From Myxococcota bacterium (GTDB lineage: Bacteria; Myxococcota_A; Polyangia; Polyangiales; Polyangiaceae): DNA of 62,006 nucleotides. Location: the NCBI GenBank assembly GCA_963169165.1, contig CAUJFL010000373.1, positions 1-62,006 on the forward strand, written 5' to 3'. Made by a program: the position numbers and the translations under genes. Under the pieces are notes generated by a model. It saw only the letters and a list, made by a program, of their open reading frames with translations, was not told where the DNA came from and did not search any database. This document shows, piece after piece, positions 2,485 through 45,945 of the stretch. Positions within the stretch are counted from its first letter, which is position 1. Every line of letters begins with the position of its first letter.

Positions 2485-3977
2485 GCCCGGCGGCCCGCGC
2501 GGTCGTGGCCGCGGCGCTCGCGAGCGTGGCGGGCTGCGGCGCGTATCGGCCGCCGCGGTTCGCCGACGCGGGGACGGTGACCGAGATCTCGGACCGTCGC
2601 GCCATCGCGGTCCCCGAGGCGCACGATCCCAGCGAGATCTCGCGGCTGACCGAGTCCCTCGTGCGCAGGCCGGTCCAGAGCGCGCTCGATCCACGGCGCT
2701 CACCGCCGCCGGGCGACGTCAACGCCCTCGACGAGGTCGTGAGCTCGACGTGGATGCGCGCCGCGGGCGACGCGAGGTCCCCGACTGGCACGCCGGACGG
2801 ACCGCCGCTGCCTCCGCTGACGCTGAAGCAGGTCACTGGCCCGGATCGGATGCGGATCGTCGACGCCCGGGGCCTCGGCTACGAGCTCTTGCTCGACTAC
2901 CCTCGTCACCCGACGCTGCGGACGGGCGCGGCTGCGATCGCGGGCCACCTCATCGCCGCGGTCGGGTACCTGACGCCCGAGGTGCATGTCATCGACATCC
3001 CCGAGGAGCTCGGCGAGGTCGCGCTGCCACGCCGCGCGTGCGTCGCGTTCGAGTCGAACGTCCGGCGCGCCGCCGCGATCCGGGGCCCGTACGGGCTCGA
3101 GCTCGGACCGCCTCATCCCTCCGAGGTCCGCCCCGACGATCCCAACGACCGGGTCCCACACGCCCAGCGCCGCTCGTTGCGCGCGCTGCGGGTCGTCGCC
3201 GCGTGGCTCTACCTCGTCGACGTCGGTCCCGACATCACGCGAGACGTCTACGTCGGGGCGCCGGGCGCGGGGCACGTGCTGCACCTGATCGTGGGGCTCG
3301 AGGACGCGCTCGGGGTCGAGCAGGCGCTCATCGAGGCGAGGCTGCTGCGGGATCCGATCGGCCGACCCGTGCGCAACCTGCTGACGCTCGGCCTCGGCGA
3401 CCCGTTCTCCACGCGCAAGAAGAGCCCCTGGACCGGCCTCGGCTCGCTCTCGACCGACGTCGATCCCGAGGACGCGAACAACCCCTGGCCCTACGATCCC
3501 GTGCTCCGCATGACAGACGCGGACGGGTACTGGATGGCGAAGCGCATCCAGCGGCTGCCGCGCGCGACGCTCGAGGCGGCGGTCGCCGCGGGCAAGCTCG
3601 ATGACGCGCGCGCGTCGCAGCACTTCGTCTACGCGCTCGACGTGCGACGTCGCAAGGTGTTCGCGCACTACTCCGCGCGCGTGACGCCGCTCGAGATCCA
3701 CGCGCTCGATCGGAACCACCTCACGCTGCGCGATCTGTCGATCACCTGGGGCTTCGCGGGCGCGAGCGACTACGAGGTCGAGTTCTTCGACGGCGACGGC
3801 CGACCCGTCGGCGTGCCCAAGCGGCTCGACGCGCACGGCGACCTCGTGACGGTCGAGCTGCCCGAGGCCGACTACGTGGTGGCCCGCCTGCGCGCGCGCG
3901 GCGGCGCGCCCCACCGCCGCGCGATGGAAGTCCACGTCGGCGGCGCCGCGCGGCGCGTGCTCGGCGTCCGTCACTGA
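2481..3977 (+). CDS. large lipoprotein resembling a kinase-like family but lacking its key residues
   Basis: This 498-residue protein starts at GTG 2481, overlapping the upstream stop. Its N-terminus has a lipobox-like ASVAGC. The region from LKQVTGPDRMRIVDARGLGY through ATSs such as AAAIAGHLIAAVGYLTPEV and LRALRVVAAWLYLVDV follows the layout of a family of Myxococcota proteins with a kinase-like fold. In that family, as I recall it, a conserved Lys sits in YLLKFD and a DxKxxN motif follows the AWL helix. Here these positions read YELLLDYP and VDVGPDI, so catalytic residues appear lost. The C-terminal 100 residues look like a beta-sandwich (DYEVEFFDGDGRPVG). The family link is from memory of its motifs, not from a search. 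Confidence 0.7.
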   Translation: MSPAARAVVAAALASVAGCGAYRPPRFADAGTVTEISDRRAIAVPEAHDPSEISRLTESLVRRPVQSALDPRRSPPPGDVNALDEVVSSTWMRAAGDARSPTGTPDGPPLPPLTLKQVTGPDRMRIVDARGLGYELLLDYPRHPTLRTGAAAIAGHLIAAVGYLTPEVHVIDIPEELGEVALPRRACVAFESNVRRAAAIRGPYGLELGPPHPSEVRPDDPNDRVPHAQRRSLRALRVVAAWLYLVDVGPDITRDVYVGAPGAGHVLHLIVGLEDALGVEQALIEARLLRDPIGRPVRNLLTLGLGDPFSTRKKSPWTGLGSLSTDVDPEDANNPWPYDPVLRMTDADGYWMAKRIQRLPRATLEAAVAAGKLDDARASQHFVYALDVRRRKVFAHYSARVTPLEIHALDRNHLTLRDLSITWGFAGASDYEVEFFDGDGRPVGVPKRLDAHGDLVTVELPEADYVVARLRARGGAPHRRAMEVHVGGAARRVLGVRH

Positions 3978-41883: not shown

Positions 41884-42551
41884 GCGCGGCGCGCCCCGCG
41901 GCGAAGCGGACGCGGAGCCAGCAGAAGCAGGAGACGCGCGAGCTCGTGTACGCGACCGCGCTCGGCCTCTTCGACGAGCGCGGCTACGAGGCCGTGAGCG
42001 TCGACGACGTGGTCCGCGCGACCGGGCTCGCGCGCGGGACCTTCTACTTTCACTTCGCGACCAAGGAAGACGTCCTGCTCGAGGCGGTGCGTCGGGGCGA
42101 GGCGCTGATCCTCCGGCGCGTCGCGGCGCTCGGGCCCCGGGCGCCGCTGCGGCGCGTGCTCGAGGCGACGATCGACGCGTTCCTCGAGGCGTGGCGGGCG
42201 CGGCGCGCGCTCTTGCCGTACGCGGGCGCGGTGTCGCTGCGCCGGATCGCCGCGGTCCGCGAGGAGAGCGAGGCCGATCCGCTGCGGCTCGAGCTGGGTC
42301 GCCGCGTGTCGTCTGCCGCCGCGCGCGGCGAGCTGTCGTCCCCGCTGCCGGGCGAGATGCTCGCCGACGTGTTTCTGCTGCAGGTCTTCGCCGCGCTGAT
42401 GACCTGGTCGACGACCGGGCGTCCCTCTGTCGACGTGCTGCGGCCCGGGCTCATCGCGCTGTTCTTCACTGGCGTGTCGCTCGCGGAGCCTTCGGCGCCC
42501 CCGCCCAGCCCTCGACGCGCCTCTCGGATCAGGGCTGCGCGCGGCCCGTGA
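41880..42551 (+). CDS. TetR/AcrR-family transcriptional regulator
   Basis: This 223-residue protein uses TTG 41880, overlapping the His-rich gene's stop. The N-terminal helix-turn-helix is ELVYATALGLFDERGYEAVSVDDVVRATGLARGTFYFHFATKEDVL, a textbook TetR DNA-binding domain. The C-terminal ligand domain is divergent, so the inducer is unknown. The nearest candidate targets are its own operon and the convergent hydroxylase gene; no operator could be picked out by eye. Confidence 0.92.
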   Translation: MSAARPAAKRTRSQQKQETRELVYATALGLFDERGYEAVSVDDVVRATGLARGTFYFHFATKEDVLLEAVRRGEALILRRVAALGPRAPLRRVLEATIDAFLEAWRARRALLPYAGAVSLRRIAAVREESEADPLRLELGRRVSSAAARGELSSPLPGEMLADVFLLQVFAALMTWSTTGRPSVDVLRPGLIALFFTGVSLAEPSAPPPSPRRASRIRAARGP

Positions 42552-43386
42552 CCTCGGCCGGAGGAGGCGCGGCGGGGCGGCGGTAGTCCCACACCTCGTC
42601 CGACGCGCCGCCACCCTCGCCCGCTCCGCCGAAGACCGCGGGCCCGTACTGTCGGTTCTTGCGGCGCATCGTGCCGAACACGCGGTCCCACAGCGGGAAG
42701 GTCTGCCCGTAGTTGACGTGAAAGTGCGCGTGGTGATCGTCGTGGAACGCGGTCGGAGCGACGAACGGCAGCCACGAGTGGAGGCGCACGCCCGAGTGAT
42801 CGACGAGCGCGTAATAGTTGGTGAAGAGCAGCGTGAAGATCACCGCGCCGACGTGCACCGGCAAGAAGAACAGCGGCACGGCCATGATCGACTGGTAGGT
42901 CGCCCACTCGATCGGGTGCATCGCCATGGCGGTGAACACCGTCGGCGACGTCCACCGGTGGTGGACCTTGTGCACGAGCCGGTAGAGCGTCGGCGTGTGG
43001 TACGCGCGGTGCGCGAAATAAAGCGCCAGATCGGTCGACAGCATGTAGACGAGCCCCGTCACGACCGCGTGCGCGACGCCGCGCTCCTCGGTGGAGAAGT
43101 AGATCGTCGTCGCCCCGCCCTTCGACACCCAGTAGACGAAGCACCCCGACGCGACCGACCCCACGGTCATGTTGACCGAGCCGAGCAAGATCTCGCGCCG
43201 GCGCGCCTTGGGAGACGGCCACCGCTTCGGCTGGCACTTCCTCTGGTCGGCCTCGGCGCGGCGCCGATAGTACAGGCGCTCGAACAAGAGCCCCATGCCC
43301 CAGTACATGCCGAGGCCGCCCGCGACCGACAGCGCGATGAACCGGGTGAGCGCGGGGAAGTCTAGCGGCGGCATCCGGCTCATCAT
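42529..43386 (-). CDS. sterol desaturase/fatty acid hydroxylase family membrane protein
   Basis: This 285-residue protein starts with ATG 43386, with a later ATG at 43374. The three His boxes of the family are present: YFAHRAYHTPT, VHKVHHRWT and the cluster AFHDDHHAHFHVNYG. Membrane helices flank them. The family uses a di-iron centre and O2 to hydroxylate or desaturate lipids. Substrate unknown. It is the last gene of a reverse unit behind trmY (19-bp gap), and its end overlaps the convergent TetR gene by 23 bp. Confidence 0.88.
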   Translation of the reverse strand: MMSRMPPLDFPALTRFIALSVAGGLGMYWGMGLLFERLYYRRRAEADQRKCQPKRWPSPKARRREILLGSVNMTVGSVASGCFVYWVSKGGATTIYFSTEERGVAHAVVTGLVYMLSTDLALYFAHRAYHTPTLYRLVHKVHHRWTSPTVFTAMAMHPIEWATYQSIMAVPLFFLPVHVGAVIFTLLFTNYYALVDHSGVRLHSWLPFVAPTAFHDDHHAHFHVNYGQTFPLWDRVFGTMRRKNRQYGPAVFGGAGEGGGASDEVWDYRRPAAPPPAEVTGRAQP

Positions 43387-43405: not shown

Positions 43406-44002
43406 TCAACGAAAGTTCGCGCGGCGTCGGTCGAGCTCGTTGGCGACGATCGTGATGGCGTCCTCGGCGTGAACGCTGACGGGCCCGACCGACACGGGTG
43501 ACGGCGAGAGCGGCGACAGCGCGGCGCGCGCGGCGTCGTCGAGGCCGAGGTGATCGCCGCAGAAGAACACCGGGCGAGGCGTCGACAGCGTGGCCTCGCG
43601 GACGTCGACGCCCGCCTCGTCGAGCACGTAGGGGCTGGACTCGCCCAGATCGGCGAGCACGACGTCGAGGCCGCCCGCGGCGACCGCGATGCCCTGGCGC
43701 AGCTCGACGAAGCCCTCCGCCGACGTCACGCGCGAGAGCGCCTTCTGCACGAGCACGGCGAGGTTGCGCTCGTCGGGCCGCACATACTGGGCGAGCGCGC
43801 CGTCGATCCGCAGCGCGCGCGGCGGGCCGCCCAGCATGACGAGGTAGACGATGGTGTCATCGCGGATCGTGTGCGAGCAGAGCAGCGCCGCGCGCACGCA
43901 CCGGACCAGGACGTCGAGCCTGCCGCTCGTGCCGGGGAGATCCTGGAGCTTGAAGTCAGGCGTCGAGCGCGCGGTGCGCCCGATCACGACGAACCTCCGC
44001 AC
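43406..44002 (-). CDS. trmY: tRNA (pseudouridine-54 N1)-methyltransferase, archaeal TrmY family
   Basis: This 198-residue protein starts with ATG. It follows the archaeal TrmY layout: RFVVIGRTARSTPDFKL, then LQDLPGTSGRLDVLVRCVRAAL, SHTIRDDTIVYLVMLGGPP, YVRPDERNLAVLVQKAL, and the knot region VFFCGDHLGLDD with VSVHAEDAITIVANELDRRR. TrmY is a SPOUT methyltransferase that turns pseudouridine 54 in archaeal tRNA into 1-methylpseudouridine. In bacteria T54 is normally made by TrmA or TrmFO, so the substrate here is uncertain. It follows a small lipoprotein gene by 3 bp. Confidence 0.85.
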   Translation of the reverse strand: MRRFVVIGRTARSTPDFKLQDLPGTSGRLDVLVRCVRAALLCSHTIRDDTIVYLVMLGGPPRALRIDGALAQYVRPDERNLAVLVQKALSRVTSAEGFVELRQGIAVAAGGLDVVLADLGESSPYVLDEAGVDVREATLSTPRPVFFCGDHLGLDDAARAALSPLSPSPVSVGPVSVHAEDAITIVANELDRRRANFR

Positions 44003-44005
44003 GCG

Positions 44006-44485
44006 CTAGATGGTCCCCGGCGGGGGCGTGAACGCCGGCGGCGGGGGCGGCGGCGACACGGGACCTCCCGGGCGGGCGGAGGGGGCGGGCACCGGCGCGA
44101 GCGCGCGGCGCGACAGGCGGGTCGCGAGGCGGCGGTGGACGTCGTCCTCGTCGAACGGGATGACGATGCTGGTCGCCACGCGTCGCTTGACCACCACCGT
44201 GACCCGCGTCTCGTAGGGCCCCGTCGGCTCGAGGAACAGCGCGCCGACGGCGCCCATGCTGAACAGGGACATCCCCGACTCGGCGGCGAAGTATTCGCGG
44301 TGCTCGGTCACCTCGTCCGCGCCGGCCTCGAGCAGCGCGGGGCGCGCCTCGGCGTGCACGAGCTGCGCTGGCGCGGCGTACGAGCGCACGACGCCGCCGC
44401 CTCGATCGCGCTCGGCGAGGACATCGGACATCGACGCGCAGCCCGTCGCGACGAAGAGCAGGGAGAGCGCGGCGGCGCGCCTCAT
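44006..44485 (-). CDS. small lipoprotein, unknown function
   Basis: From ATG 44485 the product has 159 residues. The lipobox FVATGCAS follows a short signal. A soluble domain of about 100 residues (YAAPAQLVHAEARPALLEAGADEVTEHREYF, TRVTVVVKRRVATSIVIPFDEDDVHRRLA) precedes a Pro-rich tail. The family is not recognised. It overlaps the stop of the Sth-like gene (ATGA) and precedes trmY by 3 bp, so it is coupled with both. Confidence 0.75.
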   Translation of the reverse strand: MRRAAALSLLFVATGCASMSDVLAERDRGGGVVRSYAAPAQLVHAEARPALLEAGADEVTEHREYFAAESGMSLFSMGAVGALFLEPTGPYETRVTVVVKRRVATSIVIPFDEDDVHRRLATRLSRRALAPVPAPSARPGGPVSPPPPPPAFTPPPGTI

Positions 44486-45945
44486 GCGTCCCCCACGCGC
44501 AGCAGCTCTTCTCCGAAGACCTCGCACTTGTGGATCGAGCGTCCGAGCAACAGGCGCGCGCACTCTTGCACGCCCTCGGTGATCGCGGGGTGCGGGTGCA
44601 CGCAGTAGTCGATGTCCGAGATCGTGCCGCCCTTGTCGATCAAGAAGGCGATGCCCTGCACCGCGCTCGACGCCTCGGGGCCGACGACGCGCAGCCCGAG
44701 CAGGCGCCCGTCGGGCGCGCAGAGCAGCTTCGCGAAGCCCCCGGTCTGGCGCATCGCGATGTTGCGGTTGACGAGCGCGTTGCAGACCTTGCCGACGCGG
44801 TAGTGCGCGCCGCGCCTCCTGGCCTGCAGCTCGTTGAGCCCGACCGACGCCACCTCGGGCGAGAGGAACATGATGGCCGACAGCGCCTCGTAGCGGATCG
44901 GCAGCGGCGCGAGCCCGAACATCGCCTCGATCGCGTGGCGCGCCTCGAGCTCGGCGACGTTGGCGAGCGCGATGTCCATCGTCGCGTCGCCCGCCGCGTA
45001 CACGTGCGGGACGGTGCTCTGGGTCGAGGTCACGACGATCCCGCCGCCCTTGTCGAGCTCGACGCCGATCTCGGCGAGGCCGAGGTCCGCCGTGTTGGGC
45101 GCGCGACCGACCGACACGAGCGCCCGCTCGACCCGGATCGTCTCGGTCACGCCGGCGGGCGAGGTGACGACGTACTCGACCTGACCGTCGCGCACGCGCA
45201 GGCTCTCGAGCTTGGCCTCGCGGTGGATGCGGATCCCGAGCCGCTCGAAGTTGGTCGCGATGACGTCGGCGACGTCCTCGTCCTCGAACGGCAGGATGCG
45301 CGGCTGTCGATCGATGATCGAGATCGCCGTGCGGCCAAAATTGGCGAAGATCGTCGCGTACTCGCAGCCGATCACGCCCGCGCCGACGATCACCATGCTC
45401 GCCGGGAAATCGGGCAGATCCTCGATGTGATCGCTGGTCAAGACGTGCTGTCCGTCGACCTCGATGCCGGGCGGCGTGCGCGGCGCCGAGCCCGTCGCGA
45501 CGAGGAAGCGCTCGGCCTCGAACAAGCGCGTCTCCCCGCCGCGGGCCCTCACCTCGATGGCTCGCGGCGTGACGAAGCGCGCGGCGCCCTCGACCAGCTC
45601 GACCACGCCGCCGCGGGGGCTCGGGGTCGCCAGCCTCGAGAGCTGGAACGCGAGCGTCTCGCGGCGATCGTGGATGGCGGCGCGGACCGCGTCGAGCACG
45701 GCCTGATACGACAGCTCGACGTCCCGCGCGCGGTAGCCGCGGTCGACGCGCTTGACGGTCGCGAAGTCGTTGGAGAGGTGCCACATCGTCTTCGACGACA
45801 GGGCGCCCTTGTGGATGCCGGTCCCGCCGACGCTGCCGCGCTCGACGAGCAGCGCGCGCTTGCCGAGATCGTGGGCGCGCATCGCGGCCGCGTAGCCGGC
45901 GGGGCCCGCCCCGAGGATCGCGACGTCATAGCGAGCTTGGGTCAT
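44482..45945 (-). CDS. FAD-dependent pyridine nucleotide-disulphide oxidoreductase fold, transhydrogenase (Sth)-like
   Basis: From ATG 45945 the product has 487 residues. The FAD loop is VAILGAGPAGYAAAM, and the NAD(P) loop is VIVGAGVIGCEYATIF. The second FAD region is HVYAAGDATMD, and the dimer domain ends in CVHPHPAITEGV. In dihydrolipoamide dehydrogenase the FAD-loop region carries two redox cysteines; here it reads GGTGIHKGALSSKTMW with none. This resembles soluble pyridine nucleotide transhydrogenase more than a disulphide reductase. The likely reaction is hydride exchange between NADPH and NAD. It heads a four-gene unit. Confidence 0.83.
   Translation of the reverse strand: MTQARYDVAILGAGPAGYAAAMRAHDLGKRALLVERGSVGGTGIHKGALSSKTMWHLSNDFATVKRVDRGYRARDVELSYQAVLDAVRAAIHDRRETLAFQLSRLATPSPRGGVVELVEGAARFVTPRAIEVRARGGETRLFEAERFLVATGSAPRTPPGIEVDGQHVLTSDHIEDLPDFPASMVIVGAGVIGCEYATIFANFGRTAISIIDRQPRILPFEDEDVADVIATNFERLGIRIHREAKLESLRVRDGQVEYVVTSPAGVTETIRVERALVSVGRAPNTADLGLAEIGVELDKGGGIVVTSTQSTVPHVYAAGDATMDIALANVAELEARHAIEAMFGLAPLPIRYEALSAIMFLSPEVASVGLNELQARRRGAHYRVGKVCNALVNRNIAMRQTGGFAKLLCAPDGRLLGLRVVGPEASSAVQGIAFLIDKGGTISDIDYCVHPHPAITEGVQECARLLLGRSIHKCEVFGEELLRVGDA

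Follow-up and report, generated by a model that had tools for sequence, protein, structure and literature searches.

The window (the whole 62,006-nucleotide stretch of DNA that was analysed) contains a gene for a SPOUT methyltransferase of the TrmY family, referred to below as trmY, which lies third in a run of four genes on the same strand. The run, together with a segment of trmY that differs from its archaeal and Vibrio relatives, is laid out as follows.

44482..45945, minus strand: FAD-containing pyridine-nucleotide oxidoreductase of the dihydrolipoyl dehydrogenase/transhydrogenase class, lacking a CxxxxC redox pair
44006..44485, minus strand: small lipoprotein-like gene directly upstream of trmY, signal ending VATGC
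43406..44002, minus strand: TrmY-family (COG1901/PF04013) SPOUT methyltransferase gene, 198 amino acids, GTG start, TGA stop, assigned from profile, PDB and fold matches
43454..43483, minus strand: codons for trmY residues 174-183 (PVSVHAEDAI), covering the cofactor-loop end and the start of the last helix, placed from alignments and from the model helix 179-197
42529..43386, minus strand: fatty-acid-hydroxylase-domain protein, downstream of trmY

The four genes are tightly spaced, with a 4-nt overlap (ATGA) between the flavoprotein and lipoprotein genes, a gap of 3 nt between the lipoprotein stop and trmY, and one of 19 nt between trmY and the hydroxylase gene. This spacing is consistent with the operon proposed in the original prediction, and the flavoprotein-lipoprotein-trmY-fatty-acid hydroxylase order is common to the sister species of the genus. 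Both gene partners named in that prediction, the flavoprotein and the lipoprotein, are present, and the hydroxylase gene has to be added to its account. No functional clue follows from this arrangement. None of the window neighbours was found again in the 23 other trmY loci compared, and an all-against-all ORF comparison of 25 distinct trmY loci revealed no conserved neighbour beyond the genus. Because the neighbours are genus-specific in this way, the operon is uninformative on function. In the flavoprotein itself, GGTGIHKGALSSK replaces the redox-active CxxxxC motif of the dihydrolipoyl dehydrogenase class.

Family membership, fold and the cofactor-loop change

The PF04013 profile matches the trmY product with an E-value of 9.4e-50 and 169.5 bits across profile positions 1-197 of 198, well above the curated cut-off of 25.5 bits, which answers the profile search proposed alongside the original prediction. 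The NCBIfam TrmY model NF002560 scores the protein at 179 bits against a cut-off of 183, and three other Polyangiales members at 191.3, 176 and 179.6 bits, two of the three likewise falling below. The protein is a member of COG1901/PF04013 and is not filed here as TrmY proper. Its nearest relatives by sequence in the PDB are the archaeal structures AF_1056 (6.5e-32, 114 bits) and MJ1640 (3.5e-30, 108 bits), with the Vibrio protein VCA1059 far behind (phmmer, 4.4e-13, 52.8 bits).

An AlphaFold (AF2) model built with 22 locus-derived homologues has a mean pLDDT of 90 and shows a DUF358-type SPOUT knot. Its closest structural matches in the PDB are three DUF358 entries, 3aia, 3ai9 and 2qmm, all archaeal TrmY (TM 0.90-0.92); VCA1059 follows at TM 0.83-0.85 and, next after the DUF358 entries, Nep1/Emg1 at about 0.65. 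The whole-length profile match and the structural agreement with archaeal TrmY identify a genuine bacterial TrmY/COG1901 protein, as first proposed, one that is closer to its archaeal counterparts than to the Vibrio group or any other SPOUT family.

All the motif blocks on which the original prediction was based are seen in the trmY product. The LPG..GR[LM]D, PDERN and GDHxG motifs of archaeal TrmY are kept in the Polyangiales proteins with small variations, and the first two are missing from the Vibrio proteins. A 22-row alignment of Polyangiales homologues contains 26 invariant positions; Asp181 is invariant in this alignment. A departure from the rest of the family lies where the last helix begins: there the window protein has Asp181-Ala182 in alignment with the His/Gln-Cys of the archaeal and Vibrio proteins compared. 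Asp-Ala or Asp-Val is found here in 25/25 Polyangiales homologues, so that the Cys near the cofactor-loop end that is common to the archaeal and Vibrio proteins is Ala or Val in every one. According to database annotation this Cys would contact SAM, and by analogy with SPOUT enzymes residues 174-183 are probably tied to the cofactor loop. The Asp-Ala/Val pair is shared throughout the lineage, lies close to the active site and could have come alongside a new substrate; Asp181 may stand in for the Cys of the other groups, in catalysis or in positioning.

The same replacement could instead mean altered chemistry, with the TrmY fold serving to modify another base atom or the ribose, or to bind RNA non-catalytically. 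The uniform loss of the Cys and the invariance of Asp181 fit such an enzyme, whereas the GDHxG knot motif and most other family positions are retained and purifying selection acts on the gene (dN 0.096, dS 0.49 and dN/dS about 0.2 relative to the sister species). On this balance we regard changed chemistry as unlikely.

Distribution and history within Polyangiales

Twelve of the 59 genomes in our close set (the host and 58 relatives) carry the trmY family, and an even draw of 286 genomes from the phylum yielded eight carriers, all in Polyangiales and scattered over several families. Scanning a collection of species genomes with a profile of the Polyangiales proteins gave 21 loci, the search patterns being specific enough that distant relatives would escape; the titles of these loci name Myxococcales, Polyangiaceae, Byssovorax, Sandaracinaceae, Labilithrix, Myxococcota, Deltaproteobacteria and, in one case, Proteobacteria, and together with the NCBI taxonomy they are the basis for calling the order Polyangiales. 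Identity to the window protein is 50-62% for most of the homologues, 86% for the sister species and 41% for the most distant.

In the tree the 25 Polyangiales copies form one side of a branch with support 87/94, and the Vibrio sequences form a branch of their own (100/100), the window protein not grouping with VCA1059. The two archaeal proteins included lie nearer the Polyangiales side, on long branches and with uncertain rooting. Judged by sequence motifs and tree together, the Polyangiales proteins are a bacterial COG1901 group separate from that of Vibrio.

The presence and absence of trmY requires eight changes on the TrmFO tree, and trmY has therefore been lost or moved many times within Polyangiales. 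TrmY and TrmFO distances are correlated (Mantel r 0.70, p 0.001), a signal owed to a single close pair plus one outlier: when these are left out it falls to r 0.12 (p 0.3). The correlation therefore does not separate vertical descent with losses from transfer within the order.

The GC3 of trmY equals that of the adjoining genes and, taken with the dN/dS value, indicates a settled, selected gene and no recent insertion. The transfer peculiar to the host genome that had been suspected is not borne out, given this base composition and a gene that is widespread, though patchy, in the order. That the host genome or its genus recently acquired an archaeal gene might be suggested by the patchy occurrence and by the high similarity to archaeal TrmY, but homologues spread at mostly 50-62% identity across many genera in several families, and a base composition matched to the neighbours, make this extremely improbable. 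Nor was a homologue found in the phage and viral collections scanned, and archaeal or Vibrio queries against plasmids matched in Vibrionaceae only.

tRNA position 54 and the candidate substrate

Archaeal TrmY requires pseudouridine 54 made by Pus10 (PMC9508554, PMC7912444), and in many bacteria, delta-proteobacteria included, TrmFO makes m5U54 (PMC7912444). Both enzymes were among those that the original prediction proposed to search for. Pus10 was found in none of the 59 genomes, host included, with archaeal controls positive; the host assembly is 84.6% complete, and nearly complete relatives also lack Pus10. TrmFO matches exceed the cut-off in the host as well as in 12/12 close-set carriers. 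The 30 host tRNAs that were read all have standard T-loops with TTC. The archaeal Pus10-TrmY pathway is absent from this lineage. With no Pus10 and an intact TrmFO, the enzyme is very unlikely to act on tRNA position 54. Position 54 is thus the problem for a TrmY protein in this bacterium that it was first said to be, and of the two ways out then offered, another RNA site is favoured and pseudouridine 54 made by the host is unlikely.

The archaeal role, m1-pseudouridine formation at position 54 of all tRNAs or a subset of them, could in principle persist if a synthase other than Pus10 made pseudouridine 54 in competition with TrmFO. The archaeal-type motifs are compatible with this, as is the U54-U55 sequence in the T-loops of the host tRNAs. 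Set against it are the absence of Pus10 throughout the 59-genome set, the presence in all 12 close-set carriers of TrmFO, which consumes U54, and the lack of any RluA/RsuA synthase specific to carriers, and we consider it quite improbable.

The reading we prefer, at a probability of roughly 60%, is that this TrmY-family SPOUT enzyme N1-methylates a pseudouridine other than that at tRNA position 54. The gene product would be a knotted, SAM-dependent SPOUT enzyme, presumably dimeric, transferring methyl to the N1 of a pseudouridine elsewhere in a stable RNA. N1-pseudouridine chemistry is proposed because it is performed both by archaeal TrmY and by the next-nearest fold, Nep1/Emg1 (PMC9508554). 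The pseudouridine itself would be made by an ordinary bacterial synthase of the host, where RluA/RsuA types and TruD were found and TruB and TruA are assumed. More tentatively, some Polyangiales might in this way carry, through a TrmY-family enzyme and an ordinary synthase, m1-pseudouridine at a tRNA or rRNA site that is not known to bear it in bacteria.

A dedicated partner synthase was sought by gene content. PF00849 genes are slightly more numerous in trmY carriers than in non-carriers, and among RluA/RsuA-type orthogroups compared between six carriers and six non-carriers none is confined to carriers generally, one pair being specific to the window's genus within these 12 genomes. TruD is near-universal in the genomes compared. 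No RluA/RsuA-type orthogroup marks the carriers among these 12 genomes, and we set aside a co-occurring synthase of this kind as the partner. Such null results point to a synthase shared with non-carriers as the source of the pseudouridine. In one single-contig genome (G048) an RluA/RsuA-family synthase (L127, G048:C1:5070868-5071326) lies about 6 kb from trmY; its orthogroup occurs in 6/6 carriers and 4/6 non-carriers compared, and no synthase was seen near trmY in the other five carriers checked.

RlmH acts on a 23S pseudouridine, giving m3-pseudouridine 1915, and is usually widespread in bacteria. RlmH (PF02590) is missing from one Polyangiales clade and from scattered other genomes (for example G000, G001, G011, G026, G027 and G035), including the single-contig genome G021. 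The trmY product might accordingly be thought to replace RlmH at 23S helix 69 by methylating the pseudouridine at position 1915, as RlmH is missing more often in carriers (13/25) than in non-carriers (11/47; Fisher p 0.02). When the comparison is limited to genomes with a completeness of 90% or more, however, p rises to 0.12, and half of the carriers retain RlmH. RlmH loss takes three changes on the TrmFO tree and clusters in a handful of clades, which contain non-carriers as well, and independent pairs give no support for a link to trmY. The raw association is gone under phylogenetic control; we reject RlmH replacement as a candidate and consider it quite improbable.

Relation to known systems

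COG1901 has been described as archaeal, with few bacterial members perhaps acquired via transfer (PMC1829167), and a review restricts TrmY to archaea (PMC5372735). Bacterial COG1901 proteins without a known substrate were already on record before the Polyangiales group, entered as 'Bacterial unknown methylase' (PMC5041015), and we found no paper on the Polyangiales group in the open-licence literature. Databases name such bacterial proteins tRNA pseudouridine-54 methyltransferases, for instance in Vibrio. What bacterial COG1901 proteins act on is an existing annotation problem, which the Polyangiales case sharpens: a lineage with TrmFO and no Pus10 is a clear instance in which the pseudouridine-54 label is very unlikely to hold. 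Our analysis demonstrates no mechanism beyond the known chemistry of the TrmY family.

Among other SPOUT enzymes, RsmE (16S m3U1498) shows weak profile similarity in the knot and no whole-length match. Nep1/Emg1, the rRNA pseudouridine N1-methyltransferase, resembles the window protein in its SPOUT architecture, in its m1-pseudouridine product, which is the one proposed for the window protein, and in its rank as next-best fold, and differs in belonging to another family, at 10-17% identity. The Vibrionaceae COG1901 proteins (VCA1059, PDB 2qwv) are likewise bacterial PF04013 proteins, but they have neither the PDERN nor the GR[LM]D block, keep the Cys and occupy a separate branch of the tree. 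A Vibrio-type trmY lies at 2995-3597 on the Vibrio scophthalmi plasmid pVS127 (L052), typed as conjugative, where it adjoins recX and is near radC; the Vibrio group may be mobile.

The closest known system is archaeal TrmY (COG1901; MJ1640, AF_1056, HVO_1989), the tRNA pseudouridine-54 N1-methyltransferase, which is homologous to the window protein over its whole length and has the same knotted fold (TM 0.9) and the same LPG..GR[LM]D, PDERN and GDHxG motifs. It differs in that the Polyangiales host has TrmFO and no Pus10, and in that its His/Gln-Cys, where the last helix begins, is Asp-Ala/Val in Polyangiales.
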